A stretch of 31,139 bases of DNA from a virus, in the IMG/VR virus record IMGVR_UViG_3300044628_000125, positions 1-31,139 of that record; one strand, given 5' to 3'. The translations under genes were made by a program, and so were the position numbers. Of this stretch, positions 1-31,139 are shown piece after piece; position 1 is the stretch's first letter, and every line of letters starts with the position of its first letter. Below the pieces are notes generated by a model that was not told where the DNA came from, did no database searches, and worked only from the letters and a program-made list of their open reading frames with translations.

Positions 1-105
1 GCGGTAGCGGTCTACACCTTCGGGTCGCAGACGGTAACGGCGGGTAACTTCATCCTGACCATGCCGACCAACGATGCGTCAACCGCGCTTCTGCGGATTG
101 CGTGA
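1..105 (+). CDS. C-terminal fragment of a small phage structural protein
   Basis: The reading frame is open from the first base and stops with TGA at 103-105, followed directly by a second in-frame TGA. It gives the last 34 residues (ending NDASTALLRIA), rich in Thr, Val and Gly and beta-strand-like. The start is outside the window. The fragment lies just before a repeat-rich structural gene and, on a circular map, just after portal, so a small head or connector protein is likely. I cannot assign a family from so little sequence. Confidence 0.6.
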   Translation, partial: AVAVYTFGSQTVTAGNFILTMPTNDASTALLRIA

Positions 106-111
106 TGAGTC

Positions 112-756
112 GTGGCAAAAGGGCCGTGGAATACAGGTACATGGGATGACGCGCAATGGGACAGCCTCCCGGTCACCAGCGTCACCGGAACAGGCGGCGT
201 TGGTAGCCTCGGCACCCAGCAAAGCGTCACGCTCACGGGCAACGCTGCAACGGGTGCGACGGGAAGCGTCGGAGCAAGCCTTGAGACGGGCCTTACGGGT
301 GTCAGCGCCGTTGGAGTCGTTGGAGATGAAACCGATTCGGTCGAGGTTGCCCTTTCCGGTGTGGGAGCATCTGGTCAAACAGGTGCTGTTAACCTTCAAG
401 GAGAGGTTGCACTTGCCGGTGTGGAAGCGACCGGAGCAACCGGCACCCTCACCGCCTCCGTCCAACCCATCATCGTCATCGGCGATTCCCACGAAGGCGA
501 TAAAAAGCGCAAAAAGCATTGGGAAGAAGAGCAAGAAAAACGCGAGAAGCGCAAGCAAGAGTTAATCTCGGTTTACGAGCAACTGCTTGAGGCACGCCCA
601 GAGATTGCCGAAACGATTGTAGAGCCGCATATAACTGTTAACATCGCACAACCAACAATTAACTGGGACTCCCTGTTAACTGACATTGATAGGGTTGAGC
701 GATTGATGCGAGAGCATCAGGAAATGGACGACGAAGAAGTATTGTTGCTGCTATGA
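112..756 (+). CDS. Gly/Ala/Thr-repeat structural protein with charged helical C-terminus
   Basis: 214 residues from a GTG start; two in-frame stops at 103-108 fix the upstream limit and no in-frame ATG occurs early. Residues about 20-115 are degenerate repeats of roughly 19 residues, of the type VTLTGNAATGATG, VALSGVGASGQTG and VALAGVEATGATG, which look like beta-strands with glycine turns. From about residue 125 the protein becomes highly charged (DKKRKKHWEEEQEKREKRK) and probably helical, ending in an acidic tail. Repeats like this occur in phage virion proteins; a head-surface or connector role is inferred from position only. The next gene starts inside its stop codon (ATGA). Confidence 0.65.
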   Translation: MAKGPWNTGTWDDAQWDSLPVTSVTGTGGVGSLGTQQSVTLTGNAATGATGSVGASLETGLTGVSAVGVVGDETDSVEVALSGVGASGQTGAVNLQGEVALAGVEATGATGTLTASVQPIIVIGDSHEGDKKRKKHWEEEQEKREKRKQELISVYEQLLEARPEIAETIVEPHITVNIAQPTINWDSLLTDIDRVERLMREHQEMDDEEVLLLL

Positions 757-1100
757 AACGAACTTATGTAATGGTTGACGGTGAGTTTGTCGAGCGCAAG
801 CGTGACGCAAGCGGTCGGCATCACTACATCATGCCGGACATTGCGCCGTACAAGTCGATGATTGACGGGCGCATGATTACCTCCCGTTCGCAGCATCGTC
901 TGCACCTGAAGGCTCACGGCTGCGTCGAGGTTGGCAACGAAGACCCGACAAAGTTCGTCAGCAAGCAAAAACCCAAGAACAATCGAGTGGATGTGCTGCG
1001 TCACCAGTTGTCGAGCATGACCCACTCGGATGCAAATAAATTGTTGTCGCGGTTGCGCGATGAAATCCGATTTACCCACGACCCCCACAGGAGACGGTAA
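753..1100 (+). CDS. Conserved phage protein of unknown function upstream of scaffold
   Basis: 115 residues, basic. The centre (about residues 27-62, MPDIAPYKSMIDGRMITSR followed by QHRLHLKAHGCVEVGNE) resembles short proteins that often lie between portal and scaffold genes in short-tailed phages, where they have no assigned function. It starts in an ATGA overlap with the upstream gene, and its TAA shares one base with the scaffold ATG, so the three genes are probably translationally coupled. No membrane segment or catalytic motif is visible. Confidence 0.7.
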   Translation: MKRTYVMVDGEFVERKRDASGRHHYIMPDIAPYKSMIDGRMITSRSQHRLHLKAHGCVEVGNEDPTKFVSKQKPKNNRVDVLRHQLSSMTHSDANKLLSRLRDEIRFTHDPHRRR

Positions 1101-2056
1101 TGGAACAGGCCCCACAGGCAGAGACGCTCGACCGCAAGGAGTTGCTCGAACAGCAGTTTGAGCAGAGCGATGAAACCCCTTCACAGGGGCGGGATGAACA
1201 GGGACGCTTTGCGGGAACGCAAGAGCAACCCGCAGAAGCCGCCGAAGAACCCCTGTGGCGCAAGCCGCCTGCCTCGTGGAAGAAGGAATATCACGAGCAT
1301 TGGGCAAAGGCTGACCCCAAGATTCAAGAATACGCTTGGCAACGCGAAGAACAGATGAAGCGCGGCGTAGAGCCGTTGCTCTCGAAGGCGCAATTTGCCG
1401 ATGCGATGAATCAGGCGCTGGAGCCGTACCTGCCGACCATTCAAGGGCTGGGTCTGAAGCCGGAGCAGGCGGTTGCCGCTCTCGCGCAGGCCGACTACAC
1501 GCTGCGTAACAGCCCCCCGGCGCAGAAGATGCAATACTTGACGCAATTGGCTGCGTCATACGGCATCAACCTTAACCAAGTCATGCAGGGTGGTCAGCAG
1601 ACCGCCCAACCCTCTATCGACCCGATGGTGTATCAGTTGCAAAACGAACTGAACACCGTCCGTGGCGAGGTCATGGGGTGGAAGCAACAGCAGGAAATGG
1701 CTGAAAACCAGACCCTGCTAAACGAAATCAACAGTTTCTCGATGACGGCTGAACACTTTGAGGAAGCGCGTCCGACGATGATTCAATTGCTCCAATCTGG
1801 GGTGGCTGAAACGCTGGACGATGCTTACGAAAAGGCAATTAGGCTTGATTCGGATTTGTTTGACAAAGTGCAATCGGCCCGACAGGCAGAGGTTTCACAG
1901 CGTCAGGCAACAGAGAAGAACCGTGCGGTAAAAATTGCACGGGCTGCTGCGGTCAGCGTCAGAGGTTCCACACCCGGAACTAACACGGCTCCCAAGGCGC
2001 ATAGTCGCCGCGCAATGTTGGAAGAAGCGTTTGAAGAATCCAACTCGCGGTTGTAA
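1100..2056 (+). CDS. Putative capsid scaffolding protein
   Basis: 318 residues, very rich in Gln and Glu and predicted mostly helical, with an unstructured acidic N-terminus (about residues 1-50). A motif around residues 51-75 (WRKPPASWKKEYHEHWAK) is typical of scaffold-like proteins next to capsid genes in this kind of phage. The C-terminus turns basic (about 265-318), as scaffolds do where they contact the shell. Position immediately before the major capsid gene supports the call. An ATG start follows the RBS-like ACAGGAG at 1086-1092. No protease domain is visible. Confidence 0.72.
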   Translation: MEQAPQAETLDRKELLEQQFEQSDETPSQGRDEQGRFAGTQEQPAEAAEEPLWRKPPASWKKEYHEHWAKADPKIQEYAWQREEQMKRGVEPLLSKAQFADAMNQALEPYLPTIQGLGLKPEQAVAALAQADYTLRNSPPAQKMQYLTQLAASYGINLNQVMQGGQQTAQPSIDPMVYQLQNELNTVRGEVMGWKQQQEMAENQTLLNEINSFSMTAEHFEEARPTMIQLLQSGVAETLDDAYEKAIRLDSDLFDKVQSARQAEVSQRQATEKNRAVKIARAAAVSVRGSTPGTNTAPKAHSRRAMLEEAFEESNSRL

Positions 2057-2079
2057 CCAACTGATATAGGAGCATTGAA

Positions 2080-3099
2080 ATGGCTTATGCCAATTCCAGT
2101 ATCAGCGACATTATCGCTACTAACATTCAGAGCCGTAGCGGTGAACTCGCTGACAACGTGACGAACAACAACGCGTTGCTTCGTCGTTTGAAGGAGCGCG
2201 GGAACGTCAAGACGTTCTCGGGCGGTAACGTGATTTTGCAAGAAATCATGTACAACGACACCACCACGAACAACACCAATTCGTACTCTGGGTACGAGGT
2301 GCTGAACGTTGGTCAGAACTCGCCCATCTCTGCGGCGCAGTTCAGCATCACGCAGTATGCGTCTGCTGTGTCCATCTCGGGTCTGGAGATGATTCAGAAC
2401 TCGGGTAAGGAAGCCATCATCGACCTGCTTGACGGTCGTATGGAGGTTGCCGAGGCGCAACTGGCGAACCGCATCAGCGGTGACCTGTACGGTGACGGAA
2501 CCGGCAACGCGGGTAAGAACCTCACGGGTCTTGCTGCCGCTGTGCCGGATAGCCCGTCAAGCGGCACCTACGGCGGCATCAACCGTGCGGCGTGGCCGTT
2601 CTGGCGTTCGGTTGCCTTCTCGGCGACTGGCGACGGCACGGGCGCTGTGACCAGCAGCAACATCCAAGGTTACATGGATGCGGTTGCGGTGCAGTTGATT
2701 CGCGGTACCGACAAGCCTGACCTCATCGTTGCCGACAACAACTACTACAAGTTCTACTTGCAGTCGTTGCAGGCTATCCAGCGCATCACGGACTCCGGTT
2801 CGGGCATGGCTGGTGCTGGCTTTGCCTCGCTGAAGTATTTCGGCGCTGGCATGGCCTCGGATGTGGTGCTCGATGGTGGTATTGGTTCGTCGTCGTATAA
2901 CGGCGGCGTTGGCAATGCCAACCACATGTGGTTCCTCAACACCAAGTACCTGATGTTCCGCCCCCACAAGGACAGAAACTTTGTCCCGATTGGCGGCGAC
3001 CGTCAGGCTGTCAACCAAGACGCTATCGTGAAACTGATTGGCTGGGCCGGTAACCTTACCTCGTCCGGCCCGCAGTTCTGCGGCGTGTTGATTAACTGA
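2080..3099 (+). CDS. Major capsid protein
   Basis: 339 residues, preceded by a TAGGAG ribosome-binding site. The sequence has the look of a compact HK97-fold coat protein: a helical N-terminal arm, GNVILQEIMY and SITQYASAVSISGLEM segments, a Gly-rich loop (about 140-170, DGTGNAGKNLTGLAAAVPDS) and a strand-rich second half ending SSGPQFCGVLIN. It follows the scaffold gene and precedes a small decoration-like gene, the standard order. It forms the icosahedral shell. Identification rests on family resemblance and context. Confidence 0.88.
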   Translation: MAYANSSISDIIATNIQSRSGELADNVTNNNALLRRLKERGNVKTFSGGNVILQEIMYNDTTTNNTNSYSGYEVLNVGQNSPISAAQFSITQYASAVSISGLEMIQNSGKEAIIDLLDGRMEVAEAQLANRISGDLYGDGTGNAGKNLTGLAAAVPDSPSSGTYGGINRAAWPFWRSVAFSATGDGTGAVTSSNIQGYMDAVAVQLIRGTDKPDLIVADNNYYKFYLQSLQAIQRITDSGSGMAGAGFASLKYFGAGMASDVVLDGGIGSSSYNGGVGNANHMWFLNTKYLMFRPHKDRNFVPIGGDRQAVNQDAIVKLIGWAGNLTSSGPQFCGVLIN

Positions 3100-3113
3100 T
3101 AGGGGATACGAAA

Positions 3114-3596: not shown

Positions 3597-3598
3597 CC

Positions 3599-11289: not shown

Positions 11290-12763
11290 AACAGTCTCAA
11301 CCTTTGCGCTCCCAGACGAATACCAGCGGCAAGCCTCCGAGGCACGCCGTCGTCGCCGTATGGCAGAGATGTTGGCGCAGCAGGCGTACCAGCCGGGGGA
11401 CATCCAGAACGCCCCCATTCCTCGCGGAGCGCCCTTGGTGCAGGGTTTACAGGCGTTCCTGACCGCCCGTGCAGCACGCAAGGCAGATGAGGCTGAAGAA
11501 GGCGCAATGAAGGCGCAAACCCGTGAGGCACGGGATTTCCTTCGTGCGTTGACCGAGCCTGCCAAAACGATGACGATTGGCGAAGCCGCAATGCAAGACA
11601 TTGCACAAGCGGGAACGCCGGAACTGGTAGACGGTCGGTTGGAATACCGCAAGACCGCTATGCCTGCCCCAACTCCCGAAATGGTTCCGCAAGCAGGCCC
11701 ACAAGTGCGCTTGGGGCGCAGACCGGAAGACGACCAAGTGTATATGCCAACCGCAACGGGTCGAGAAACTGACCCGCAACGCATGGCTGCAATGCTTGCC
11801 AATCCTCAATACAAGGCTGAATTTACGCCCGAACAAAAGCGTGCGCTTGCCCTTGAGGGCGTGTTGACCAGTCAAAACCCGCTTGTGCAGAAAATTGGGC
11901 AGATGCAGTACGCGGCGATGCAGCCGAAGCAACTTGAGGTTGGCGCAATTGACCCGGGCGATTACACGCCGGAAAGTTTTACGAATTATCTAAACACAGG
12001 CAACTTTGGCGTGTTGAAGATGCGCGACCAGCCAACTGCCGCTCCAAAAACCGCCGCGCAAGACACATTGCAATGGAATCCTAAAACGCAAAAATGGGAA
12101 GATATTCCGGGAGCAGTTTCTCGCATAAGAGACATTGCTGAAGCAAGGCGCATCGTAGTCAACACAGGCGGCGGCGCTAGTAACGAACCATTGGAAAGAG
12201 TTGAGGGGCCGGATGGAAAACCAGTCCTTGTAAGACGTTCTGAAGCGGTTGGTAAAACGCCAGCACCAGCACCAAGTGAAAAACCAAAAATGCCGGGAAG
12301 TGTTGCAACCAATATTGCAGCACTTCAAACCAAATCAAAACAATTTGCCGCAGGTGTTCAAAGGGCTAATTATTTCCGCAATCTTATTGAAAACGATAAT
12401 TTGCCATTAAATATTTCATCTGGCATTCAATATTCTATACAACGAGCAACAGACCCAGAAGGAATTGCAAGAGATTCAAAAGGCAACAAACCTCCTTATG
12501 TTCTGTATTCAGAACTCAACAGATTTGTCACGGAACAAGTCAATACAATTTTGCAACTTGCAAAAGGAACGCAAACGGAAGGCGATGCTCTTCGCGCTCA
12601 AAAACAAATTCTTGATAATCCAAACAACAAAGCGATTGTTTTGTCTGCTCTTGAAGATTTGCAACGCAGTTTTACCAATGCTCAACAATTTGCAAATGAA
12701 GAAGCAGAGTTTTTGTTAAATAGATATGAAGGTTCAGATAAAGTTGAAGAGGTTGACTACTAA
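11279..12763 (+). CDS. Probable internal virion protein, charged and helical
   Basis: 494 residues from ATG 11279, chosen because GGGGAGGA lies 7 bp upstream; a GTG at 11252 would add nine residues but lacks a site. The N-terminal 100 residues are Arg/Ala-rich and helical (EARRRRRMAEMLAQQ). The middle is Pro-rich and probably flexible; the C-terminal 165 residues are helical (FRNLIENDNLPLNISSGIQY, FVTEQVNTILQLAKG). From about 12270 the DNA becomes clearly AT-richer, with A/T-ending codons, a likely mosaic joint. No enzymatic motif found. Confidence 0.6.
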   Translation: MAVKTVSTFALPDEYQRQASEARRRRRMAEMLAQQAYQPGDIQNAPIPRGAPLVQGLQAFLTARAARKADEAEEGAMKAQTREARDFLRALTEPAKTMTIGEAAMQDIAQAGTPELVDGRLEYRKTAMPAPTPEMVPQAGPQVRLGRRPEDDQVYMPTATGRETDPQRMAAMLANPQYKAEFTPEQKRALALEGVLTSQNPLVQKIGQMQYAAMQPKQLEVGAIDPGDYTPESFTNYLNTGNFGVLKMRDQPTAAPKTAAQDTLQWNPKTQKWEDIPGAVSRIRDIAEARRIVVNTGGGASNEPLERVEGPDGKPVLVRRSEAVGKTPAPAPSEKPKMPGSVATNIAALQTKSKQFAAGVQRANYFRNLIENDNLPLNISSGIQYSIQRATDPEGIARDSKGNKPPYVLYSELNRFVTEQVNTILQLAKGTQTEGDALRAQKQILDNPNNKAIVLSALEDLQRSFTNAQQFANEEAEFLLNRYEGSDKVEEVDY

Positions 12764-14730
12764 TGCCGTACACAATTCGCACAAAAGACGGCATTGAAAT
12801 TCCTAATGTCCCAGACAATGTTGACAAAAATTCACCACAAGCCAGAGCATTAGTGCAGGCTGAACGGGTAAAAAGAGCGTCTGTTGTTGCTCCTGTTACA
12901 ACGCCTAGTACGCCGTCCGTAACACAACCTGAAGAGTCAGGGCTTGCGCGTGGGCTTGGCCTTGTTGGTCGCGCAGTTGCTCCGTATGCCGCCGCAGCCG
13001 GGGCAGGTGCTGCGGCAGGCGCTCCATTTGCCGGGGTTGGCGCAATCCCCGGCGCCATTGCTGGTGTTGGCGCATATGGCCTTGCTCAACTGGCTGATGC
13101 GTTGGCAATGGGCGGAGAAGGGCAGCAAGCGGTTGAACGCGGACTGACTGCGGTAGGGTTTCCCGAGCCGCAAACGGCTACTGAAAATATCGGTATCGCA
13201 GGCATTCGTGGTGCGCTTGGCGCGGGAGGCACAGCGGCAACTGCTGCGAATGTTTCGCGGGGTATGGAATTAGCGCGAATGTTGCAAGGAACTCCTGCAA
13301 CAACAACGCAGCGGGTAACGCAGGCGCTTGGCGCTCGTCCTGACGTGCAAGCAATTTCAGGCGGCACAGGCGCGGTTACCGCGCAAGGAGCGCGTGAACT
13401 AGGATTGCCTGAACCCGTAGCAATAACCGCCGGTGTTGTTGGTGGCATGGCTCCGTATACATCGGTTGGCGGGATGCAACGCTCGGCAGAAGATGTAGCA
13501 ACCGCTGCGCGCGATACGGCAACTGCGGTACGCAATAGGGGAACGCAACCCCAACGTCCCCGCGCTACGCCTACTGCGCCTACCGCTCCAATGCCGCCAA
13601 ACGAAATACGGCGTGGCAATGTTCAACGATTAGAGAATGAAGGCATACCAATTTCGCCGGGTCAACGGTCGGGTGCGCCGTTGACTCAAACGATGGAAAG
13701 CACAATGGCTTATCTGCCGGGGTCAACTGGGCAGACTGCTAGGTTTCAAGATTTGCAGCAACGCGCATATACAAGAGCATTGTTGCGCCGCGCTGGTATT
13801 GATAGCGATGTTGCTTCGCAAGAAGTGCTGCGCGAAGGAAGAAATCGTTTTAACCAAGCATATGATTACCTAGAACAGAACACTAGTTTGATGGGTGGAA
13901 GTGAACCGTTGTTCAACCGATTGGCGCAAGTTGAAAGTCAATATGGTCAAGGGTTCAGCGACCAGATGAAGCGCACTTTTCGAACAATGCGCGATGATTT
14001 GCTTAATTGGGCAGCAGGCACGCCTCGTCAGGGTCAAACTTACCAACGGATGCAAGAGGAATTAAGCAGCGAAATAAGCAAGGCTGGTCGTAGTGATGCC
14101 CCCGGTTCAGAGCGGTATCAACAAGCGTTGCTTGGTTTGCGTAGAGGGTTAACAGATTTGATGGAAGAAAACACGCCGCCTGAAATTGCACAGCAATGGC
14201 GTCGCGTTAACCGTGAGTACGCCATTTTCAAAACGATTGAAGAGGCAATGCTTGACCCCGCGCAAAGAACTATAAATTCTGGGTTTGTTAATCCTAGAGT
14301 AATTGCGCGAGAACAAAAATTGCAGTTGCCGGACGAGTGGACACGCGGCGACCCGGATGTAGACAGTTTTACTAATTTGGTCAAAGCGGGCGCGGGCATC
14401 ATTCCTGACCCCATTCCAAACAGCGGCACGGCGCAAAGGATGTTTGCACAGGACTTGCTTACGGGCGGTCGAGAAATGTTTGGTCTTGGCGGCGGTGACC
14501 CATTGCAGCGCGTATCGCAAGCCGTAAGAGGCGGCGTTGGCACAACGGCGTCGGTTGGATTTATGGACCCGGTGCTTGGCGTTGCAATTCCTAACATTGT
14601 GTCTCGTTCTTGGTTCAGGCAACCTCAACAACGTGGGCCGGTGGCAATTCCTGCCGCGACAGAATCGACAAAACAAAGGCAAAAATCGCGTAGAGAGCGG
14701 TTGGCTGAAATGATGCAAAGGAGCAATTAA
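12763..14730 (+). CDS. Probable DNA-ejection protein with Gly/Ala membrane-active region
   Basis: 655 residues; its ATG shares one base with the preceding TAA. Residues about 72-115 are a long Ala/Gly-rich hydrophobic stretch (PYAAAAGAGAAAGAPFAGVG and following) that could insert in a membrane. Residues about 270-500 are helical and charged (PISPGQRSGAPLTQTMEST; RAYTRALLRRAG). This layout, last of a group of long helical proteins before the tail fibre, is typical of podovirus ejection proteins that cross the cell envelope with the DNA. Function inferred from architecture and position. Confidence 0.62.
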   Translation: MPYTIRTKDGIEIPNVPDNVDKNSPQARALVQAERVKRASVVAPVTTPSTPSVTQPEESGLARGLGLVGRAVAPYAAAAGAGAAAGAPFAGVGAIPGAIAGVGAYGLAQLADALAMGGEGQQAVERGLTAVGFPEPQTATENIGIAGIRGALGAGGTAATAANVSRGMELARMLQGTPATTTQRVTQALGARPDVQAISGGTGAVTAQGARELGLPEPVAITAGVVGGMAPYTSVGGMQRSAEDVATAARDTATAVRNRGTQPQRPRATPTAPTAPMPPNEIRRGNVQRLENEGIPISPGQRSGAPLTQTMESTMAYLPGSTGQTARFQDLQQRAYTRALLRRAGIDSDVASQEVLREGRNRFNQAYDYLEQNTSLMGGSEPLFNRLAQVESQYGQGFSDQMKRTFRTMRDDLLNWAAGTPRQGQTYQRMQEELSSEISKAGRSDAPGSERYQQALLGLRRGLTDLMEENTPPEIAQQWRRVNREYAIFKTIEEAMLDPAQRTINSGFVNPRVIAREQKLQLPDEWTRGDPDVDSFTNLVKAGAGIIPDPIPNSGTAQRMFAQDLLTGGREMFGLGGGDPLQRVSQAVRGGVGTTASVGFMDPVLGVAIPNIVSRSWFRQPQQRGPVAIPAATESTKQRQKSRRERLAEMMQRSN

Positions 14731-14731
14731 C

Positions 14732-17008
14732 ATGTCTTTCAATGGCTCGGGTACATTCCTTATCAACACGGCAGGCCAGCCTGTAGTCGCTGGCACCGTC
14801 ATCTCGTCCACGGCGTTTAACGCCCTGACGGCTGACCTTGCCACCGGCCTTTCGACCGCCATCACGAAGGACGGTCAGACGACGGTCACCGCCAACATCC
14901 CGATGTCCACCTACAAGTTCACGGGGCTTGGGGTAGGCTCTGCCGCCACGGACTCTGCGAACTTGTCGCAGGTGCAATCTACGGTCACCAAACTGCTTAC
15001 GAGCGTCTCTGGGGCTGACACCATCACGGCTGTGGGTGCGCCTGTGGTTGCCGCCTACGCTGCCGGACAGATGTTCTATTTCGTCGCCACGGGCGATAAC
15101 ACGGGCGCGGTGACGCTTAACATCGACTCGCTGGGTGCAAAGGCTGTGACCCGTGACGGGTCTGTGGCCCTTGCTGCGGGTGACATCAAGAGCGGTGAGG
15201 TAGTGGTAGTCGTCTATGACGGCACGCGCTTCCAAGTCGTCTCGCAGTTGAACAGCGCCGGTAACGCGACCTTTGCCAATGTGTCCATCACCTCGGCGCT
15301 CAATGTCGGCGGCGTAGCCACCTTCTCGGCAGGCACTGCCGCAGCGCCGTCTATCACCACGACCGGCGACACCAACACCGGCATCTTCTTCCCCGCCGCA
15401 GACACGATTGCCTTCACGGAGGGCGGCGTTGAGGCGATGCGGATTGACTCGTCAGGTCAAGTTGGCATCGGGACGAGTTCGCCTGCGTACAAGTTGGATG
15501 TGCGTGGTTCAGGAAACATTATTTCTTGGTCAGATGGCACGACACCCGGCGTTCTTTATTCAGCCGCTAGTTATTTTGGATTAACAAACTCAGCACAAAC
15601 AAACGGGTTTTTTGTAAATCCATCTGGGGCTTTCTGCACTATTGCTACAGGCGGTTCAGAGCGCGCCCGTATCGACTCCTCCGGCAACCTCGGCATCGGG
15701 ACGAGTTCGCCTACAGAAAAACTCCATGTTGCAGGCGCATTGCGTGTTACAGGCGCACAGACAACAGCAGGAACTGGTGTTTACCTTGACCAGACTTCTG
15801 GCACGGGCGGCGTATCTGTCTACGGCCCTGATAACTCAACGCAAGGCACATTTCGTATCTATACGGCTACAGCCAACGGGGGTACTGGTAGCACAAAACT
15901 AACCCTTGACACCTCCGGCAACCTCGGTCTGGGCGTAACGCCGTCGGCGTGGAGTTCCAGTTTTGGAATTAAGGCTTTTGACATTTCAGGCGGGGCTGTT
16001 TACGGCTCAAGCAGTGATGTCAACATGGTGTGGAACGGCGTGTACAACACCAGCAATCAATGGGCATACAAAGCCAGCGCAACGGCGAATTTATATACCC
16101 AAGATGGCGCTCACAAGTGGTTTTCAGCAGCCTCCGGCACCGCAGGCAACGCCATCTCGTTCACGCAGGCGATGACGCTGGATGCGAGTGCGAATTTGTC
16201 TGTCGGAACTACCGCAGTAACGACTGCTGGGGCTGGCTACCAAGCGTTTACAATCAACGGAGCAAACGGTTCAAACATTGCTCTTAATGGCGGCGCTACA
16301 AACATTGGATTAATTTACGCTGCTACTGGAAACAGTAACTTATACATTGGAAACCAGACAGCAAGCGGCAACTTAATTTTTAACGCTGGCTCTGGCACCG
16401 AACGCGCCAGAATAACGGCGGCGGGTGATTTGCTGGTTGGGACGACAAGCACATTAAACAGTAACGTTGGTTTAAGTGTTCAGGGAAGCCAAACAAATGG
16501 AGGCGCTGGAGTTATAACTGCGTACAACTCCGCAGCAGCAAGCGCAGACAATTCTCCGCCTTTGGTTGTCATGAAGGCCATGACCACCACTACATCAGCG
16601 GCTCGCTTTGTTCAGTTTTATGCGAACGACACGGCTCAGGCAATGGGCGGAATCGTAGGCAATGGCGCGACCAACGTGCAGTTTGCAACCATTTCGGATT
16701 GTCGCAACAAGACAAACATAGAGGAAATTGCTGGGTCGCTAGATAAGGTTCTGGCTTTGAAGCCGGTGAGTTTTGATTGGGTAGCCAATGGGGAACACGT
16801 CAAGGCCGGTTTTGTTGCTCAAGATGTTGAAGAAATATTTCCAGAATTTGTTGTTGAAAACATGGCAGACGAAGGGGCAGAGGCGCGTAAAGGTCTGACC
16901 GGAGGAATGACAGGGGGAATCATTGCTCACTTGGTCAAAGCCATCCAAGAGCAGCAAGCAATGATTAAATCACTTGAGGCGAAAGTCGCCGCATTGGAGA
17001 GCAAATAA
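14732..17008 (+). CDS. Tail fibre with C-terminal S74 intramolecular chaperone domain
   Basis: 758 residues, ATG after AAAGGAGC. The N-terminal part (about 1-200) carries FNGSGTFLINTAGQPVVAG and later AAGQMFYFVATGDNTGAVTL, typical of fibre virion-attachment regions. The shaft has repeated IDSSGNLGIGTSS-type units. The last 105 residues hold the Peptidase_S74 domain: SDCRNKTNIEEI contains the Ser-Asp and Arg-x-Lys of the S-D-x-R-x-K site, then GFVAQDVEEIFPEFV and a final coiled coil. In the family this domain trimerises the fibre and cuts itself off. This is the best candidate receptor-binding protein. Confidence 0.88.
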   Translation: MSFNGSGTFLINTAGQPVVAGTVISSTAFNALTADLATGLSTAITKDGQTTVTANIPMSTYKFTGLGVGSAATDSANLSQVQSTVTKLLTSVSGADTITAVGAPVVAAYAAGQMFYFVATGDNTGAVTLNIDSLGAKAVTRDGSVALAAGDIKSGEVVVVVYDGTRFQVVSQLNSAGNATFANVSITSALNVGGVATFSAGTAAAPSITTTGDTNTGIFFPAADTIAFTEGGVEAMRIDSSGQVGIGTSSPAYKLDVRGSGNIISWSDGTTPGVLYSAASYFGLTNSAQTNGFFVNPSGAFCTIATGGSERARIDSSGNLGIGTSSPTEKLHVAGALRVTGAQTTAGTGVYLDQTSGTGGVSVYGPDNSTQGTFRIYTATANGGTGSTKLTLDTSGNLGLGVTPSAWSSSFGIKAFDISGGAVYGSSSDVNMVWNGVYNTSNQWAYKASATANLYTQDGAHKWFSAASGTAGNAISFTQAMTLDASANLSVGTTAVTTAGAGYQAFTINGANGSNIALNGGATNIGLIYAATGNSNLYIGNQTASGNLIFNAGSGTERARITAAGDLLVGTTSTLNSNVGLSVQGSQTNGGAGVITAYNSAAASADNSPPLVVMKAMTTTTSAARFVQFYANDTAQAMGGIVGNGATNVQFATISDCRNKTNIEEIAGSLDKVLALKPVSFDWVANGEHVKAGFVAQDVEEIFPEFVVENMADEGAEARKGLTGGMTGGIIAHLVKAIQEQQAMIKSLEAKVAALESK

Positions 17009-18205: not shown

Positions 18206-18540
18206 GTCTCGTAGCAGAACAGGCGGCGTTCCTGCTGGATGTCGCCAAACTCGTTAACAAAGCGACTGAACTGGGCTTTGTCGTCACGGGTGGTGAACTT
18301 GCCCGTACCCCGGAACAGCAGGCCATCTATGTAAAGACTGGTCGCTCCAAGACGATGAACAGCATCCACCTCAAGCGGTGCGCCATCGACTTGAATTTCT
18401 TCCGCGACGGCAAGTTGACCTACGACATCCCGGCTCTTACGCCGGTTGGTGAGTATTGGCAGAGCCTTAACCCCAAGAACCAATGGGGCGGGTTCTGGAA
18501 GTCGTTCAAGGATGTCCCGCACTTCGAACGCAGGGTGTGA
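18202..18540 (+). CDS. Endolysin, M15-family peptidoglycan peptidase
   Basis: 112 residues, GTG start in GTGA overlap with the holin. The zinc-site motif S-x-H-x(6)-D is seen as SIHLKRCAIDL (His56, Asp63), and the last ligand as DVPHFE (His107, with Asp104 before it). This is the M15 (VanY / L-Ala-D-Glu peptidase) arrangement, close in size to compact single-domain phage endolysins. There is no signal peptide, so it needs the holin. No spanin gene is evident nearby. Its stop codon is followed immediately by a tRNA gene on the other strand. Confidence 0.86.
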   Translation: MSLVAEQAAFLLDVAKLVNKATELGFVVTGGELARTPEQQAIYVKTGRSKTMNSIHLKRCAIDLNFFRDGKLTYDIPALTPVGEYWQSLNPKNQWGGFWKSFKDVPHFERRV

Positions 18541-18610
18541 TGGCGAGGGTGGATTCGAACCACCGTTAGCGGAGTCAAAGTCCGCTGTCCTGCCGCTAGA
18601 CGACTCGCCA
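18541..18610 (-). tRNA. tRNA-Gln (anticodon UUG)
   Basis: Read on the minus strand, a 7-bp acceptor stem TGGCGAG/CTCGCCA encloses a D arm (GTCT...GGAC), a 5-bp anticodon stem GCGGA/TCCGC with loop CTTTGAC (anticodon TTG), a short variable loop and a 5-bp T stem with loop TTCGAAT. The U1-A72 pair is characteristic of tRNA-Gln. No CCA is encoded, and the discriminator would be T at 18540 rather than the usual G, which is odd. It is the last element of the leftward operon. Confidence 0.9.
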
Positions 18611-18732: not shown

Positions 18733-19277
18733 AGTGCCTCCACGCTGTAGGACTGTGACGGTGATTTCCAATCTCGCGGCGGGTCGCCCGACAGGTGGCT
18801 CGGGTCAACCCAATGCAGTTTGTTGTTGGGGTAAGCGATGAGCGGCCCAGCCTCCAGCCGGACAATGTGGTGGTCTTTGCTCTGGTCGCTGACCTCCGAC
18901 CAGCCCCCGTTGTGCCAGAAGATGCTGAACAGGTAGACCCCCGGCCTCCACACTCCGTCCCTGCCTCTTGCGCGGACGCGGTGACCCCGCAGGAATTCCA
19001 TCTCCCGCACCTCGGCGTGGCGGCTAAAGGAGTCCCACCAGCAGGCGAGTTCTAAAGCCATTGGAGGGCATGGCTTCGACACAAGGGCATGGATAGGCAC
19101 CCTCGCCCATTGCGCCCCACAGGCCGCCATAACGCTAAACATGGGTACCCGTGCAGGTTCAGCGCGAAACCCGAAGATGGTGCAGGGGGTAAACTCCCCG
19201 CTGCCCGTCTGGTGGTCATATAGGAATTCGTTGCGGATGTACGCCGGGGTGTACGGCGTGTCTACCATGAAGGTCAC
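18696..19277 (-). CDS. Conserved hypothetical phage protein
   Basis: 193 residues. A GTG start at 19277 overlaps the preceding stop as GTGA; an ATG three codons later (19268) is an alternative. The sequence is rich in Trp, His, Pro and Arg (FSVMAACGAQWARVPIHALV; LACWWDSFSRH; VYLFSIFWHNGGWSEV), probably a compact mixed alpha/beta fold. I have no named family for it and no catalytic motif is evident. It belongs to the leftward recombination operon. Confidence 0.65.
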   Translation of the reverse strand: MTFMVDTPYTPAYIRNEFLYDHQTGSGEFTPCTIFGFRAEPARVPMFSVMAACGAQWARVPIHALVSKPCPPMALELACWWDSFSRHAEVREMEFLRGHRVRARGRDGVWRPGVYLFSIFWHNGGWSEVSDQSKDHHIVRLEAGPLIAYPNNKLHWVDPSHLSGDPPRDWKSPSQSYSVEALWSDGSSTGSAT

Positions 19278-19558
19278 AGTAGTCCCTCTCGGTTAAGTTG
19301 TGCGAGGGTTCGCGCCATGCCTTCGAGATGCAGCAGACGCACATAGTCCCGGTCAAGGTCGGTATGCGCTCGACGGTCGATAGCATCGTGGCACGCGCTA
19401 CAGGCCCATGCGCCAAGGATGTCGGGCGACTTCATGCCAATCCCAGATACCCCGGCAAGCCGGTAGTGCGCCAGCACGGTTGTCTCGGAGTTGTGGTTGC
19501 AGACCTCGGGGATACGCACCATGCAGCCTCGCCCTCGGGCTTCCTTACGCAGTTTCAT
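19274..19558 (-). CDS. YbcO / DUF1364-like putative nuclease
   Basis: 94 residues starting MKLRKEARGRGCMVRIPEVC and containing VLAHYR, then GAWACSACHDAIDRR. Cys12, Cys20, His31, Cys53, Cys56 and His57 form a likely metal-binding, HNH-like centre. This matches the DUF1364 family typified by prophage protein YbcO, a putative phage nuclease usually found near nin-region genes. Its start overlaps the ninB end by 14 bp. Activity is inferred from family and metal ligands. Confidence 0.8.
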   Translation of the reverse strand: MKLRKEARGRGCMVRIPEVCNHNSETTVLAHYRLAGVSGIGMKSPDILGAWACSACHDAIDRRAHTDLDRDYVRLLHLEGMARTLAQLNREGLL

Positions 19559-20629: not shown

Positions 20630-20886
20630 AACGGCAAATCCTCATCGTCGTTAAACTTCTCGGGGTTTTGCTCTGCCATCGTTTTAGGACGCGCAGCCTG
20701 CTTCGGCTCGAACTTGAGCGACATAAAAGCATCGCCGGTCTTACTGCTGCGCTTAATCCACGCGCTGATGTTGAGGTCGATATTGTCGATGACGGCAGAG
20801 CCACGGTAGTTAGGCGCTTTTTCGTTTCCTTTTTGGTCGTTCTTGAACAAAACGCCACGGTTGTTGTTGTCGTACTGTTTAACCAC
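20626..20886 (-). CDS. Small single-stranded-DNA-binding-like protein
   Basis: 86 residues. A strand-rich core (NYRGSAVIDNIDLNISAWIK, then AFMSLKFEP) could be a small OB-like fold, followed by a flexible linker and the acidic tip DDEDLPF. A Pro-Phe acidic tail is the hallmark by which SSB proteins recruit partners. It sits between Erf and NinB, as phage SSBs often do. Its start overlaps the Erf end by 8 bp. Function is inferred from tail and context, since the core is not a standard full-length SSB. Confidence 0.62.
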   Translation of the reverse strand: MVKQYDNNNRGVLFKNDQKGNEKAPNYRGSAVIDNIDLNISAWIKRSSKTGDAFMSLKFEPKQAARPKTMAEQNPEKFNDDEDLPF

Positions 20887-21523
20887 GGTTCTTCTCCTTT
20901 GCGATGGTGATGTATTTCTTGATTGCTCCCCGCTCCTTCGCGGTCAACTGGTCAGCGGCGGCAACATACAAGTCGTGGTTGCTGCTAATCCGCTCGTGGA
21001 TTCCAAGGACGGCATTGGCAATGTCGCTTTCGTCAGCGTCAAGATTGAACGCAGCACGGAACTCGGTTACAAGCGCATCCCGCGTTTTTGCGTCCACGCT
21101 TTGCCCAAGGTCACCCCGAGGGTTGTTCACAAAGCCTCGCGCCTGTGCTGCCTCTGCATCGTCATCAATCTGCGCCAGCCCGACGATGGCAGCGAGGGCA
21201 TAGCGTCGAGCGTAGGTGATGCCCGACCCCTGCGCCTGTGGGCCGTTGTCCTTTGTGACAACCGGGAGCGTGCCGCGCATCCATTCGCCGCTGCTGTGCG
21301 CGAGGGTAGTAACAAGCACGGTTCCGCCCTCAGTCACCTCGGTCGTCTGAATAACGGCGAGGTTGTTGGCGGCTAACTGCTTGCGGCAGGCATCCCAGCA
21401 TGATGCAAGGTCAGCGTACTTACTCTTGAAAAACGGATTGCTGCTGTCCTTAAGCGCACCCGTAATGTCGGCCTGCGCTTTGGAAAGGGCTGCGGCAAGA
21501 GCCGCGATGGATTCACTTTGCAT
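20879..21523 (-). CDS. erf: Erf-type single-strand annealing recombinase
   Basis: 214 residues from ATG 21523 with GAGGAAG about 9 bp upstream; a longer in-frame reading exists but has a non-coding-looking extension. PFFKSKYADLASCWDACR, then TVLVTTLAHSSGEWMRGTLP and GSGITYARRYALAAIVGL followed by DDDAEAA match the ERF family (P22 Erf), which anneals complementary strands in phage recombination and concatemer or circle formation. A C-terminal helical region (about 150-214) is less conserved. Confidence 0.88.
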   Translation of the reverse strand: MQSESIAALAAALSKAQADITGALKDSSNPFFKSKYADLASCWDACRKQLAANNLAVIQTTEVTEGGTVLVTTLAHSSGEWMRGTLPVVTKDNGPQAQGSGITYARRYALAAIVGLAQIDDDAEAAQARGFVNNPRGDLGQSVDAKTRDALVTEFRAAFNLDADESDIANAVLGIHERISSNHDLYVAAADQLTAKERGAIKKYITIAKEKNRG

Positions 21524-21620
21524 TTTGTTCTTCCTCAAATTGCTGTTGTTCAAGGTCTTGCTGATGCCACCAACTGTCATCGTCGTCCCACGGGGCATCT
21601 GACTGGTCAAAGTCGTCCAT
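21513..21620 (-). CDS. Tiny acidic ORF overlapping erf start
   Basis: 35 residues; ATG 21620 follows GAGGA about 8 bp upstream and shares one base with the previous TAA. The product begins MDDFDQSDAPWDDDDSWWHQ and continues Gln/Glu-rich; it is extremely acidic, with three Trp. Its end overlaps the erf start by 11 bp in another frame, suggesting translational coupling. The composition resembles DNA-mimic or partner-binding peptides, but no function can be assigned. Confidence 0.5.
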   Translation of the reverse strand: MDDFDQSDAPWDDDDSWWHQQDLEQQQFEEEQNAK

Positions 21621-23038: not shown

Positions 23039-23686
23039 ATGCTGTCAAATGCTCAACAAGCGTTAAATTTTTTTGAACAAAAAAATGAAGATAGCGAATA
23101 TGTGGTGAGAAAAATTGAAAATTCTAACACGAAGGAATTAATCCTAAATTTTCATTACGCTCGCCGTATGCCTTCAATTTCATTTGCATATGGATTGTTT
23201 TTGAATGGCGAATTAGAAGGAGTTGTTACTTTTGGACAACCTGCATCACCAAGAGTTTGCGATGGTATTGCAGGAAAAGAAAACGCTCGTTTGGTTTTGG
23301 AATTGAACAGATTGGTTTTGCGAAACAATCGTAAAAACGAAGCAAGTAGATTAGTTGGGCAAGCATTAAGAATGTTGCCTAAACCAAAAATTATTATTTC
23401 TTATGCAGATACGGCCCAAAAACATTTGGGAGTTGTATATCAAGCAACAAATTTCGACTATTACGGTTTGTCTGAAATTCGTACAGACAGGGTTTTTATA
23501 GATGGCACAAAACAAAAACATGGACGCCATGTGATTAGCACAGACATTGAAAATTTACACGAAAGAACAAAATTAGTTGAGCGCCCAAGAAAACATAGGT
23601 ATGTAAAAATAATTGCAAACAAAACAATTCAAAAACGATTAATGCAACAAATTAAATACGAAAAAAAGCGATACCCTAAAAATTGA
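23039..23686 (+). CDS. mom: Mom-like DNA adenine-modification protein
   Basis: 215 residues. NFHYARRMPSISFAYGLF (about 37-54), GVVTFGQPAS, LELNRLVLRNNRKNEASRLV (87-106), IIISYADTAQKHLGVVYQATN (about 118-138) and YYGLSEIRTD match the Mom family, GNAT-fold proteins typified by phage Mu Mom, which converts adenines in phage DNA to a carbamoylmethyl form that resists host restriction. The basic C-terminus suits DNA binding. The gene is far more AT-rich than its surroundings, and its 16-bp leader recurs just after its stop, so it looks like a recently acquired cassette. Confidence 0.8.
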   Translation: MLSNAQQALNFFEQKNEDSEYVVRKIENSNTKELILNFHYARRMPSISFAYGLFLNGELEGVVTFGQPASPRVCDGIAGKENARLVLELNRLVLRNNRKNEASRLVGQALRMLPKPKIIISYADTAQKHLGVVYQATNFDYYGLSEIRTDRVFIDGTKQKHGRHVISTDIENLHERTKLVERPRKHRYVKIIANKTIQKRLMQQIKYEKKRYPKN

Positions 23687-25562: not shown

Positions 25563-25932
25563 GCGGCTGATGAAGAACCGGGATGCGCCGCATATTGATT
25601 ACGGCGCATTCCTCGGGTTGCTGCCGAACAACCCTAAAGCCTGCCCGTGCAATATTGACGGCATCATCGAGCGAAAGGGAAAGTTCCTTGTACTCGAATG
25701 GAAGCGTCAGGGTGAGGGGATGTCCGAAGGGCTGCGCCGCACCTTGCAGGCACTTGCAGGGACTACGGGTTTTCAAGTTTGGGTGGTGCGCGGCGATACG
25801 GACAACGGGCTACGCATCGGACGGTTTTACTCGGTGCCACCTTTCGGCAAACCAAAGTTGTTAGGCGAAGGCGTGGATGAGTTCATTGCGGTGTACCGGC
25901 TGTGGTACGAGTACGCCGACGGGTCTTTCTGA
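25552..25932 (+). CDS. PD-(D/E)XK nuclease-like protein
   Basis: 126 residues from GTG 25552, overlapping the zinc-finger-like ORF by 11 bp. NIDGIIERKGKFLVLEWKRQ (Asp36; Glu49-x-Lys51) gives the core of a PD-(D/E)XK active site, followed by a helix (LRRTLQALAG) and a strand (FQVWVVRGD) as in Holliday-junction-resolvase-like folds. It directly precedes a VRR-NUC nuclease. Substrate unknown. Confidence 0.6.
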   Translation: MEFERLMKNRDAPHIDYGAFLGLLPNNPKACPCNIDGIIERKGKFLVLEWKRQGEGMSEGLRRTLQALAGTTGFQVWVVRGDTDNGLRIGRFYSVPPFGKPKLLGEGVDEFIAVYRLWYEYADGSF

Positions 25933-26228
25933 TGCGCTACGCCGCACGCCGGGATGCCAACGATGCCGCCATTACCGCAGCCGTAAGAGCGGCAGGGTTT
26001 ACGGTGTACGACCTCGGGCTGGCAGGGCAGGGCGTACCCGATAAACTGGTCACCGCCCCCGGCTTTGCTGCCTTCCTCGAAATCAAGACCCCAACGGGCA
26101 AACTGCGGAAAGGGCAGGAACGCTTCCAGATGGCGTTTGAGCCGCTTGGGATGTGGTACCTAGCCCGAGACCCTGCCGAAACGGTTGCGTGGCTTCAGGC
26201 GCGACTGACGACGACCCAGAAGCCTTGA
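25932..26228 (+). CDS. VRR-NUC domain nuclease
   Basis: 98 residues from ATG 25932, sharing one base with the previous TGA; an upstream ATG at 25902 lies within that gene. ARRDANDAAITAAVRAAGF, then GQGVPDKLV (Pro36-Asp37), FLEIKTPTGKL (Glu50-x-Lys52) and GQERF match stand-alone phage VRR-NUC proteins, restriction-fold nucleases thought to resolve branched DNA in replication and recombination. Its end overlaps the opposite-strand methyltransferase-like gene by 34 bp. Confidence 0.85.
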   Translation: MRYAARRDANDAAITAAVRAAGFTVYDLGLAGQGVPDKLVTAPGFAAFLEIKTPTGKLRKGQERFQMAFEPLGMWYLARDPAETVAWLQARLTTTQKP

Positions 26229-26719
26229 CCCATGAGTTGATGGTGCTGGAGGTGGTGAATGTGGAAGCGTTCGCAAAGCCGGGGAAGCCACCACCGCGCA
26301 GGCTCTTGGATAAGATGGGCGTTCCTGCCGTCGCTTAACACCTTGACCGCCGCCCCCGTGTGGACGCTGAAGAAACCCAACCGGGGCATGATACGGGCAA
26401 GGTCATCCAGCACAGCGTCGAGCCGGTCAGGTTCGATGTGTTCCAGCACATCAATGCAGCAGACCATATCAGCCTCTACGGGAGGCCCGTACTCTGGGAA
26501 GGCTGGGTCATAGGGTCGGTAGTCAATCGAGATACCCGCAGGCTCAAGGGCGCGTTGCAGGTTCTTCTTGCCAGCACCGTAGTCGGACAACGACTTGATG
26601 CCGTTATCCACGATTAACTTTGCAACGATGGGCGCAAAGGCGATGGAAGCCACGCCATAGGCGGGATTGGTGTGCAGTTCGACCTGCTGGGCGCGGTAGG
26701 CTTCGGAGATGGTAGTCAT
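26195..26719 (-). CDS. SAM-dependent methyltransferase-like protein
   Basis: 174 residues, ATG preceded by AAGGA. LSDYGAGKKNLQRAL (about 44-58) is a motif I-like SAM-binding loop, DYRPYDPAFPE and ADMVCCIDVLEHIEPDRLD (about 83-101) are the later strands and the D-V-L-E-H signature, and FFSVHTGAAVKVL follows. It matches short class I methyltransferase-like proteins common in phages, target unknown. It is the only leftward gene among the rightward genes from 22300 onward, so it may be an independently regulated insertion. Confidence 0.75.
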   Translation of the reverse strand: MTTISEAYRAQQVELHTNPAYGVASIAFAPIVAKLIVDNGIKSLSDYGAGKKNLQRALEPAGISIDYRPYDPAFPEYGPPVEADMVCCIDVLEHIEPDRLDAVLDDLARIMPRLGFFSVHTGAAVKVLSDGRNAHLIQEPARWWLPRLCERFHIHHLQHHQLMGQGFWVVVSRA

Positions 26720-28301: not shown

Positions 28302-28308
28302 CAGGTTG

Positions 28309-28343: not shown

Positions 28344-28364
28344 GGCAGATTGTGAAGAAGTGCA

Positions 28365-28643
28365 ATGGCTAAAGGCGTAAAGACAGGCGGGGGCAGTCGA
28401 GCAGGCATCCCCAACAAGGCCACAGCCGCCGCAAGGGAGGCCATTTCTCGTTTCGTAGATGGCAACGCAGACCGCTTGCAGGGCTGGCTCGACGAGATAC
28501 ACCAAGAGAAGGGCGCAGAGGCGGCGTTTAAGTGCTTCAGCGATTTGCTTGAATACCATGTGCCTAAACTCGCACGCCACGAACACAGCGGCCCAGACGG
28601 CAGCAAGATTGAGATTGAGGCGACTTGGGGCAAACCCGAGTGA
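28365..28643 (+). CDS. Probable small terminase subunit
   Basis: 92 residues starting MAKGVKTGGGSRAGIPNKATA, then EAISRFVDGNADRLQGWLDE and LLEYHVPKLARHE. Small proteins with this pattern directly precede the large terminase in many phages; they are basic, helical and likely bind DNA. The GTG of the large terminase overlaps its stop. Assignment as small terminase is mainly by position. Confidence 0.65.
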   Translation: MAKGVKTGGGSRAGIPNKATAAAREAISRFVDGNADRLQGWLDEIHQEKGAEAAFKCFSDLLEYHVPKLARHEHSGPDGSKIEIEATWGKPE

Positions 28644-29974
28644 AGCAGCGGGTAGAACTCCCGTATCGCCCTAGACGGGCCTTCATGCCGTTCCACGACC
28701 GCACAAAGCGGTGGGCCTGCCTCGTCGCGCATCGGCGTGCTGGCAAGACTGTCGCAGCGGTTAACGACATCATCCGCGCAGCCTTCATGTACAAGGGGCC
28801 AAACGGCCTCTTCGGGTATGTCGCTCCATATCAGAACCAAGCACGCCGCATTGCGTGGGACTACTTCAAGCACTACGCCCAGCCGCTCATCAGCGACACC
28901 AACGAGCAGATGATGACCATCACGCTCGTTAACAACACGAAGGTCAGCCTATTCGGCGCAGACAACGCAGACGCAATGCGCGGCCTCGGGTTCAGCGGCG
29001 TGTACATGGACGAGTACGGCGACTTTAAGCCAAGCGTGTTTGGCAATGTCATCCGGCCTGCGCTCTCCGACAAACAAGGCTGGGCTGTGTTCGCCGGTAC
29101 GCCGAAGGGCAAGAACCAATTTTGGGACATCTACGAAACGGCACGGCGCATCCCAGATGAGTGGTTTGTCCTGCGCCTGCCTGCCAGCGATTCGGGCTTG
29201 CTGCCCCAGAGTGAACTCAACGCGGCAAAGGCGCAGTTGTCCGAAGACCAGTACCTCCAAGAGTACGAGTGCAGTTTCGAGGCGGCTATCCTCGGCGCGT
29301 TCTTCGGCACAGAGATGCGACAGGCAGAGTCGCGTATTAACGAGCGTGTAGTCTTTGAGCCGGGGTATCCGGTACACACCGCATGGGACTTGGGCTACCG
29401 CGACGACACGGCTATCTGGTGGTATCAGGTGGTGGGCGGCGAGGTGCGCGTTATCGACTTCTACGCAGTCTCGGGTGCAGACATCCGCGCCATCGCGGAG
29501 GTAGTCGTTAACAAAGGTTACACCTACGGCAAGCATTACCTGCCGCATGACGCACGCGCCAAGAGCCTACAGACGGGGCGCAGCATCGTAGAGCAGTTGG
29601 CTGACCACCTCGGCATCAACCATTTGTCCGTGGTGCCAAACATCGGCTTGCAGGATGGAATCCAAGCAATTCGCCAGATGTTGCCCCGAACTTGGTTCAA
29701 TTCCGTAAAATGTGGCGACGGAATAGAGGCTTTACGCCAGTATCAACGAGAGTATGATGAGGACAAGAAAGCGTTCAGGGCATCACCCCGACACGATTGG
29801 ACATCACACCCTGCCGACGCTTTCCGTATGTTAGCCGTTGCGTGGAGGGCTGAACCGTCCGCGCAGAGGCCGTTAGAGAGCAAGACCTTGATTGTTGGGC
29901 CACAGAATGAGGTCACGCTAAACGATATGTGGCAGGTTCACGAGCGTAGCGTCTCAAGGAGGGCGCGAATATGA
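28640..29974 (+). CDS. terL: Terminase large subunit (packaging ATPase-nuclease)
   Basis: 444 residues from GTG 28640, which overlaps the small-subunit stop as GTGA; a TTG at 28625 is less likely. Walker A-like VAHRRAGKT (about 29-37), Walker B GVYMDEYGDF (Asp124, Glu125), then a nuclease domain with TAWDLGYRDDTAIWW and a late HDWTSHPADAFRML supplying acidic ligands. It drives DNA into the procapsid through the portal and cuts concatemers. Length and motifs are complete, so the gene looks intact. Confidence 0.92.
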   Translation: MKQRVELPYRPRRAFMPFHDRTKRWACLVAHRRAGKTVAAVNDIIRAAFMYKGPNGLFGYVAPYQNQARRIAWDYFKHYAQPLISDTNEQMMTITLVNNTKVSLFGADNADAMRGLGFSGVYMDEYGDFKPSVFGNVIRPALSDKQGWAVFAGTPKGKNQFWDIYETARRIPDEWFVLRLPASDSGLLPQSELNAAKAQLSEDQYLQEYECSFEAAILGAFFGTEMRQAESRINERVVFEPGYPVHTAWDLGYRDDTAIWWYQVVGGEVRVIDFYAVSGADIRAIAEVVVNKGYTYGKHYLPHDARAKSLQTGRSIVEQLADHLGINHLSVVPNIGLQDGIQAIRQMLPRTWFNSVKCGDGIEALRQYQREYDEDKKAFRASPRHDWTSHPADAFRMLAVAWRAEPSAQRPLESKTLIVGPQNEVTLNDMWQVHERSVSRRARI

Positions 29975-30276
29975 GTGGCGTAAATCTTCCGTATCAATAC
30001 CCCTACGAGACGGTCGCCGTTTCGCAGACCGCGCAGGTGCTTGGCACCAACGGCGCAGCAAACGATTACCTGCATCGCATCGTGGTGACGGTATCAACGG
30101 CGCTGACTTCAACCGTCAGCATCATCGACGGCAGCACAACCATCCTTTCCATCCCAGCGAGTACGGCTGTTGGCGTGTATGTCGTGGAACTTGGCCTCAA
30201 CGCGGCTACCGGCCCGTGGAAGGTCACGACGGGTGCAGGCGCTGCCGTGCTGGCAGTTGGCTTGTTCAGCAAATGA
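29971..30276 (+). CDS. Small beta-rich structural protein
   Basis: 101 residues, ATGA overlap with terL. Strand-rich and short of charged residues (LHRIVVTVSTALTSTVSIID, VGVYVVELGLNAATGPW, AAVLAVGLFSK), like small head-surface or jelly-roll proteins near portal genes. Function unknown. Confidence 0.6.
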   Translation: MSGVNLPYQYPYETVAVSQTAQVLGTNGAANDYLHRIVVTVSTALTSTVSIIDGSTTILSIPASTAVGVYVVELGLNAATGPWKVTTGAGAAVLAVGLFSK

Positions 30277-30437
30277 ACCGTAAGCCCGGACTCTACGCCA
30301 ACATCCTAGCGAAGCAGGAGCGCATCAAGGCAGGCTCCGGCGAAAGGATGCGTAAGCCCGGAGAGGCTGGTGCGCCGACCGCAAAGGCGTTCCGCGAGTC
30401 TGCGAAGACGGCTAAACCAGAGAAAAAGGGTTACTGA
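30273..30437 (+). CDS. 54-residue basic phage protein
   Basis: ATG 30273 in ATGA overlap; in-frame sequence upstream lies inside the previous gene. Begins MNRKPGLYANILAKQERIKA and contains SGERMRKPGEAGAPTAKAF. Very basic and probably disordered. Similar small proteins recur between terminase and portal genes in phages. Function unknown; possibly DNA- or capsid-binding. Confidence 0.65.
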   Translation: MNRKPGLYANILAKQERIKAGSGERMRKPGEAGAPTAKAFRESAKTAKPEKKGY

Positions 30438-30730
30438 TGAGCGCAGCGTGGCAGCGTAAGGAAGGCAAGAACCCGAAGGGTGGCCTCAACGCCGCTGGTC
30501 GCGCATCGTACAAGCGTGAGACGGGCGGCACCCTTAAGCCCCCGGTGAAGGGCGGCGATAACCCACGCCGCGCTAGTTTCCTCGCACGCATGGGCAACAT
30601 GGCTGGGCCGATGGAGAAGAACGGCAAGCCGACCCGCCTCGCCCTCGCGCTGCGTGCTTGGGGTGCGTCGAGCAAGGAAGATGCGAAAGCAAAGGCTAGA
30701 GCCATCTCTGCGCGAAACAAGAAGGACTGA
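30437..30730 (+). CDS. DUF6321-like phage protein
   Basis: 97 residues; its ATG shares one base with the previous TGA. WQRKEGKNPKGGLNAAGRAS, then GTLKPPVKGG, RRASFLARMGNMAGPM and SLR-like ALALRAWGASS match the small basic family DUF6321 found in packaging regions of phages. Function unknown. Confidence 0.68.
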   Translation: MSAAWQRKEGKNPKGGLNAAGRASYKRETGGTLKPPVKGGDNPRRASFLARMGNMAGPMEKNGKPTRLALALRAWGASSKEDAKAKARAISARNKKD

Positions 30731-30733
30731 CAG

Positions 30734-31139
30734 ATGGACGAGCGCGTTAGCCAAGAACTTGAAAAGTACCTGCGGGTCATCGGCACCTACGAGAATGAGT
30801 TTGCCAAGTGGCAGGCGCGGGTAAAGAAACTCGTCAAGCGTTACCGCGACGACACCAGAGGCTCGGGCGGCAACGAAACCGCCAAGTTCAACATCCTTTG
30901 GAGCAATGTCCAGACGCTCATCCCTGCCGTCTACGCCAAACTGCCGAAGGCTGATGTAAGCAGACGCTTTGGCGATAACGACCCCGTTGGGCGTGTCGCT
31001 GCACAATTGGTCGAACGCGCCATCGACTTTGAGATTGAGCATTACCCCGATTTCCGCTCGACCATGAAATACGATGTCGAGGACAGGTTCCTCGGCGGTC
31101 GAGGCACGGCATGGGTGCGGTACGAGCCTCATGTTGCCC
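30734..31139 (+). CDS. Portal protein, N-terminal fragment (runs off the window)
   Basis: At least 135 residues, open to the end of the window. LRVIGTYENEFAKWQARVKK, FNILWSNVQTLIPAVYAKLP, PKADVSRRF and DRFLGGRGTAWVRYEP match the portal N-terminus of SU10/P22-like short-tailed phages; such portals are normally several times this length. It forms the dodecameric channel used by the terminase and adaptor. Its missing C-terminal part should continue toward the fragment at the start of the window if the map is circular. Confidence 0.82.
   Translation, partial: MDERVSQELEKYLRVIGTYENEFAKWQARVKKLVKRYRDDTRGSGGNETAKFNILWSNVQTLIPAVYAKLPKADVSRRFGDNDPVGRVAAQLVERAIDFEIEHYPDFRSTMKYDVEDRFLGGRGTAWVRYEPHVA

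Follow-up and report, generated by a model that had tools for sequence, protein, structure and literature searches.

The stretch of DNA analyzed here is the whole IMG/VR virus record IMGVR_UViG_3300044628_000125 (31,139 bases, free of N; hereafter the window), which comes from an environmental survey, and the feature under study is the loss of short palindromic words from this phage genome and its relatives. As had been noticed in an initial annotation made from the sequence, the word GATC does not occur in the window. An exact count, which covers both strands because the word is self-complementary, gave 0 sites in 31,139 bases, and four null models expect 92 to 117. The expected number was 117 from base composition, 103 from a maximal-order Markov model (that annotation had proposed a Markov expectation as a check), and 91.6 from dinucleotides. 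For the strictest null, synonymous codons were shuffled in 41 reading frames (28,833 bases) with every protein and the codon counts per gene held fixed; this gave 95.2 ± 7.3 sites, with a minimum of 76 in 300 shuffles. The absence of GATC is real and lies far beyond chance.

The initial annotation had held the loss to be specific to GATC, and this did not survive counting. AGCT is likewise missing from the window (0 vs. 95 expected, and 104 ± 8 under the synonymous shuffle), as is CCWGG (0 vs. 65 expected, and 75 ± 7 under the shuffle), so that GATC (0/92-117), AGCT (0/95) and CCWGG (0/65) all count as eliminated at an observed/expected ratio below 0.1 with more than 15 sites expected. With ACGT reduced to 12 sites vs. 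110 expected, the avoidance of other, unrelated palindromes that the annotation itself had named as contradicting its claim is what we observed, and not an avoidance of GATC alone with other palindromes normal. Under the synonymous model, CTNAG (3 observed vs. 60) and GGWCC (1 vs. 47) are also depleted, CASTG is counted among the low words with 2 copies, and many six-base palindromes are absent, including GCCGGC, CCGCGG, CTGCAG, ACCGGT, AGCGCT, GTCGAC, TCGCGA and AAGCTT with zero copies each. In total, 25 of 68 testable palindromic words of four, five or six bases were cleared (testable, at least 10 expected; cleared, observed/expected at most 0.1), words which overlap and are not mutually independent. 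The loss is not a blanket one, as several palindromes and related words (TTAA, GTAC, TCGA, AATT, GCGC, TGCA and GCWGC) show no avoidance in the window.

GGCC and CATG are just moderately low, which could reflect composition, and the question arises whether base composition, codon usage or protein content could have produced all of the losses as a side effect. The synonymous shuffles refute such a cause, as 95 GATC, 104 AGCT and 75 CCWGG sites are expected when proteins and codon counts are fixed, and sister contigs with the same guanine-plus-cytosine (GC) content of 0.56 (L143 and L145) have normal word counts; we regard this origin as practically excluded, and the losses do not depend on coding content. 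A second explanation in the initial annotation, conflict with Dam-type methylation signals through mismatch repair, replication control or methyl-directed cleavage, fits the complete absence of GATC, which is the Dam word. However, AGCT, CCWGG, GGWCC, CTNAG and six-base palindromes are not Dam words and are equally or nearly as low. Because Dam conflict leaves these losses unaccounted for, it is insufficient and refuted as a full account, and it is very improbable as the force behind GATC avoidance.

Relatives of the window were fetched by means of its major head protein gene (80 loci) and its terminase gene (80 loci). A clade pool of 117,316 non-redundant bases was assembled from the window and those terminase loci with identities of at least 86% (65 of the 80); in this pool AGCT (1 observed/372 expected), GATC (1/360), CCAGG (2/227) and GGACC (7/211) are nearly gone. 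In a comparison of 6-mers that left out words containing the main cleared cores, an observed/expected ratio below 0.25 was found for 25 of 42 palindromic words and for 13 of 1,901 non-palindromic ones. Five of these 13 (ACATGC, GAGCCC, GGGCAC, GAGCAC and GAGACC) match what we take to be degenerate or type IIS sites. A scan of the pool for two-part motifs returned only CCTN5AGG and GACN5GTC, both symmetric, and no type I motifs were found in it among the low words. Losses confined to type II-like words in the clade pool, with no type I motif standing out, are the trace expected of orthodox type II enzymes; a phage survey (PMC6286503) also reports avoidance at orthodox type II sites and none at type I or IIG sites. 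One palindrome, GTTAAC, is in excess both in the window (19 vs. 5.6 expected) and in the pool (95 vs. 22), mostly as in-frame Val-Asn codons.

The terminase large subunit gene of the window (28625..29974, + strand; Pfam Terminase_6N/6C) is the basis of a tree of 84 loci, a quick build with a single kind of support value, in which the near clade containing the window has a support of 99. The comparison with related phages suggested in the initial annotation gave a clear result: all 33 near-clade rows have GATC cleared and none of the 51 others do (50 are normal and 1 is partial), which amounts to one change on the tree, whereas 20 label shuffles required 23 or more. ACGT, with partial rows left out, also changes once, AGCT seven times and TCGA six times, parsimony counts that alone do not distinguish gain from loss of words. 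TCGA follows the reverse pattern: it is normal in all 33 near-clade rows, and 24 of the 51 others have it cleared. The cleared sets thus differ between clades in both directions. TCGA is strongly low in far relatives (L185, L188, L190, L192, L214, L248 and others), with 79 of 384 expected sites in a ten-contig pool. Of the 84 rows, 74 are cleared of CCWGG and 76 of GGWCC. At the level of loci, the 65 near-clade members, which comprise 562,901 bases of overlapping content, have no GATC in 64, no AGCT in 62 and no ACGT in 44 cases, and among the 15 remaining terminase loci of the same search the corresponding numbers are 0, 12 and 0. Selection by restriction, as put forward in the initial annotation, gains from these results, since the lost words are type II-like, are lost independently of proteins and codons and switch on and off by clade; its GATC-specific form does not, AGCT being equally absent. 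The contigs are metagenomic and their library type is not known, which would leave room for an assembly or library artefact in which DNA was cut at the sites before sequencing. Yet dozens of words are cleared at once and follow the phylogeny across many separate contigs, and related contigs in the same collection have the words at normal number, so that the probability of an artefact is negligible.

Words have also come back within the family. L143, L145 and L149 form a supported clade nested inside it on the terminase tree, and their six-base palindromes stand at observed/expected ratios of 0.90 to 0.94, whereas 18 further contigs of the family range from 0.14 to 0.24 and L167 has 0.29. None of the testable words is cleared in L145 (0/57) or L143 (0/55), and we conclude that this nested clade has regained cleared words. 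L144 is listed with the three as carrying returned words. CTNAG is low in L145, with 10 sites vs. a synonymous expectation of 22 ± 4.

From these results we consider it highly probable that sites were cleared repeatedly under several orthodox type II restriction systems in this phage lineage, and we infer restriction enzymes to be the selecting agent and synonymous change to be the route of clearing. If a type II enzyme is present in the cell, unprotected sites would expose the incoming genome to cleavage, and variants with fewer sites would survive more often, until none are left and the enzyme is powerless; many enzymes met in succession would leave a genome with few targets. The sites were probably lost through substitutions, mostly synonymous ones. 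An old core set (CCWGG, GGWCC, CTNAG, CASTG, RCATGY, GDGCHC and many six-base palindromes) would have been cleared in almost every relative, GATC and ACGT on the branch to the window's clade, and AGCT would have switched state several times. Each cleared word would stand for an enzyme met often and for long, either within a host group that carries many systems or along a succession of hosts.

Several observations weigh against selection by restriction enzymes. Eight of the 13 low non-palindromic 6-mers (AGTATA, GGCGGA, AGTGTA, ATTATA, ACTGTA, GCGAGC, CATGCA and CTAATA) match no site that we could name. In L145, a number of words exceed the synonymous expectation, namely CCWGG (74 vs. 40 ± 5), TGCGCA (17 vs. 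7 ± 2), GATC (79 vs. 58 ± 6) and AGCT (66 vs. 46 ± 5); loss of pressure accounts for a neutral return of the words in this contig, not for their excess. In addition, neither a host nor a cognate enzyme was identified by a terminase search of genome contigs or by DNA searches of genomes.

To place the window among known phages, we counted cleared words in a panel that was hand-picked and not random. Against 25/68 in the window, cleared/testable words numbered 15/84 in N4 (first 50 kb), 12/67 in T7, 11/82 in Mwe-JY13, 9/75 in A-4L, 7/76 in EBPR podovirus 2, 6/70 in P26218, 5/60 in KHP30, 4/59 in Mvi-Yong1342-1 (25 kb part), 3/73 in BUCT555 and 1/87 in Ma-LMM01 (first 50 kb). T7 and N4 resemble the window in having many palindromic words cleared, but the window clears about twice as many words as T7 on a shorter sequence, and its six-base palindromes have an observed/expected ratio of 0.23 vs. 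0.47 and 0.46 in T7 and N4. The Anabaena phage A-4L shares with it the clearing of GATC and GGWCC, whereas AGCT, CCWGG and CTNAG are not in the cleared list of A-4L. In the survey cited above (PMC6286503), orthodox type II sites are, as in the window, completely or nearly completely lost (bias <0.1) without type I avoidance, and elimination is reported for 7.5% of phage-site pairs. In contrast to that survey, which drew on the link to hosts, the window has 25 of 68 words cleared in one genome, and the cleared sets vary from clade to clade. No description of this phage family was found in the literature searched, a search that subscription papers largely escaped. Site elimination is a known strategy, of which the window is an extreme case with an unusually clear evolutionary record; what makes it interesting is its breadth (25/68 vs. 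12/67 in T7), together with the way words switch on and off by clade.

The 12 ACGT sites that remain in the window are distributed unevenly. Five lie at 2156..2309, in the 5′ part of the capsid gene (major head protein, 2080..3099, + strand; PHROG phrog_9953, expect value (E) 5e-106), and the other seven at 12235..16800. In some near-clade contigs, including L104 (5/5), L106 (4/4) and L056 (5/5), all ACGT sites are found in this same capsid segment. The segment is 92-93% identical to the ACGT-rich far relatives L110, L111, L113 and L114, whereas in L110 and L111 identity is 83% over the 3′ part of the gene. Judged from these identities, recombination with an ACGT-tolerant relative probably brought the segment in; alternatively, ACGT may have been kept there through a local constraint on sequence. 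Across lineages, the 5′ segment (2100-2350) is more conserved than the 3′ part and holds four or five ACGT in otherwise ACGT-free phages. A predicted Erf-like single-strand annealing protein (20879..21610, - strand; PF04404, E 3e-22) is a candidate that could promote mosaic exchange at the capsid gene.

The window also encodes a protein of the Mom family (23039..23686, + strand; PF25680, E 2e-37; phrog_1384), as does phage Mu, and in this respect it has the gene that marks a Mom-protected phage of the Mu type. The target motif of Mu Mom would cover some AGCT and ACGT contexts and is not known to include GATC. Matches to the gene were found at 18 loci in all, 13 of which (L082-L094) were newly fetched by the Mom query itself, and among family contigs it is present only in the window, L001, L082/L174 (one contig), L083, L023 and L191; many near-clade loci are fragments outside the place of the gene, so these numbers do not establish its absence locus by locus. 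The copies in L001, L082 and L083 are close, and more distant ones occur in phages of 40% GC. The gene is rare in the fetched relatives, while the words are cleared throughout the clade, with 64 of 65 near-clade loci lacking GATC. Mom was therefore rejected as the cause of word loss and looks like an addition, possibly a second anti-restriction device. Nucleases of the phage itself could in principle cut the words in host DNA, with its own genome cleared accordingly, and the window does have nuclease-like genes, namely YbcO (19274-19558) and a weak endonuclease match (25902-26228). These candidates are, however, too few for the number of cleared words, and PADLOC gave no defence-type match among the 8 proteins tested, which makes this explanation hardly credible. 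Among the structural genes lies one with an MptE-like domain (PF01973, 3599-4372). Site elimination is commoner in phages with a non-temperate lifestyle. No integrase turned up among the window proteins scanned, which did not cover all frames of a possibly incomplete record.

The terminase search of genome contigs gave matches at 8 loci, the best of them in metagenome-assembled genomes (MAGs) of Nitrosomonadales (71%) and Lysobacterales (66%) and in one named Synechococcaceae (53%). These MAG loci do not show the clearing of words found in the window, and binning errors are possible. DNA searches of 299 genomes, in two nearly identical sets, and of 399 genomes, all without cyanobacteria, produced only transfer RNA (tRNA) and gene matches; the near identity of the two 299-genome sets suggests that G001 and G003 are assigned to the same phylum. 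Three short matches were rejected as spacers of clustered regularly interspaced short palindromic repeats, one (L280) lying in ordinary sequence and two (L295 and L297) having no repeat array. The tRNA-Gln (TTG) gene of the window (18539-18610), which is also found in several relatives, gave no clear host match when compared. A methyltransferase-like gene (26195-26719) has homologues in sampled genomes of the order to which G001 belongs, at 60-65% protein identity, which may hint weakly at this order as the host group. The segment 30282-30425, encoding about 48 residues, has a 79% match in G437 (a 4.2 Mb chromosome) and a 69% match in G210, and no further window phage gene was present around these matches within the 17-19 kb fetched. 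AGCT and GATC methylation are reported to occur together in a lake Thaumarchaeon (PMC6329791), which has no evident link to the window phage.

The evidence is divided on whether the phage met restriction in a single host group rich in systems or through a wide host range, with many hosts of few systems each. The cleared set far exceeds the average of roughly 2.5 systems per genus given in PMC8262939, which speaks for a wide range. The same source describes some genera as rich in systems, with about 16 per genome in Microcystis; the two scenarios are inseparable here, and we rate the wide range at slightly less than an even chance. The GC content of the phage (56%) does not suggest Microcystis as host.

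We see about equal chances for and against the further proposal that the set of cleared words acts as a heritable barcode, in which each lineage records the restriction specificities that it has encountered. The core would be old, single words would have switched at identifiable branches (GATC once), and one clade would have been released, presumably when its host or the defence it faced changed. If cleared words do mark the enzymes met, the contigs of one common phage family would list restriction specificities in order with the host unseen, and phage contigs by themselves could then disclose which restriction systems uncultured hosts possess. With one GATC branch and one released clade, the speed of site loss and return would become measurable. 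The window also shows how close to restriction-proof the genome of a natural phage can get, mainly by means of sequence change.

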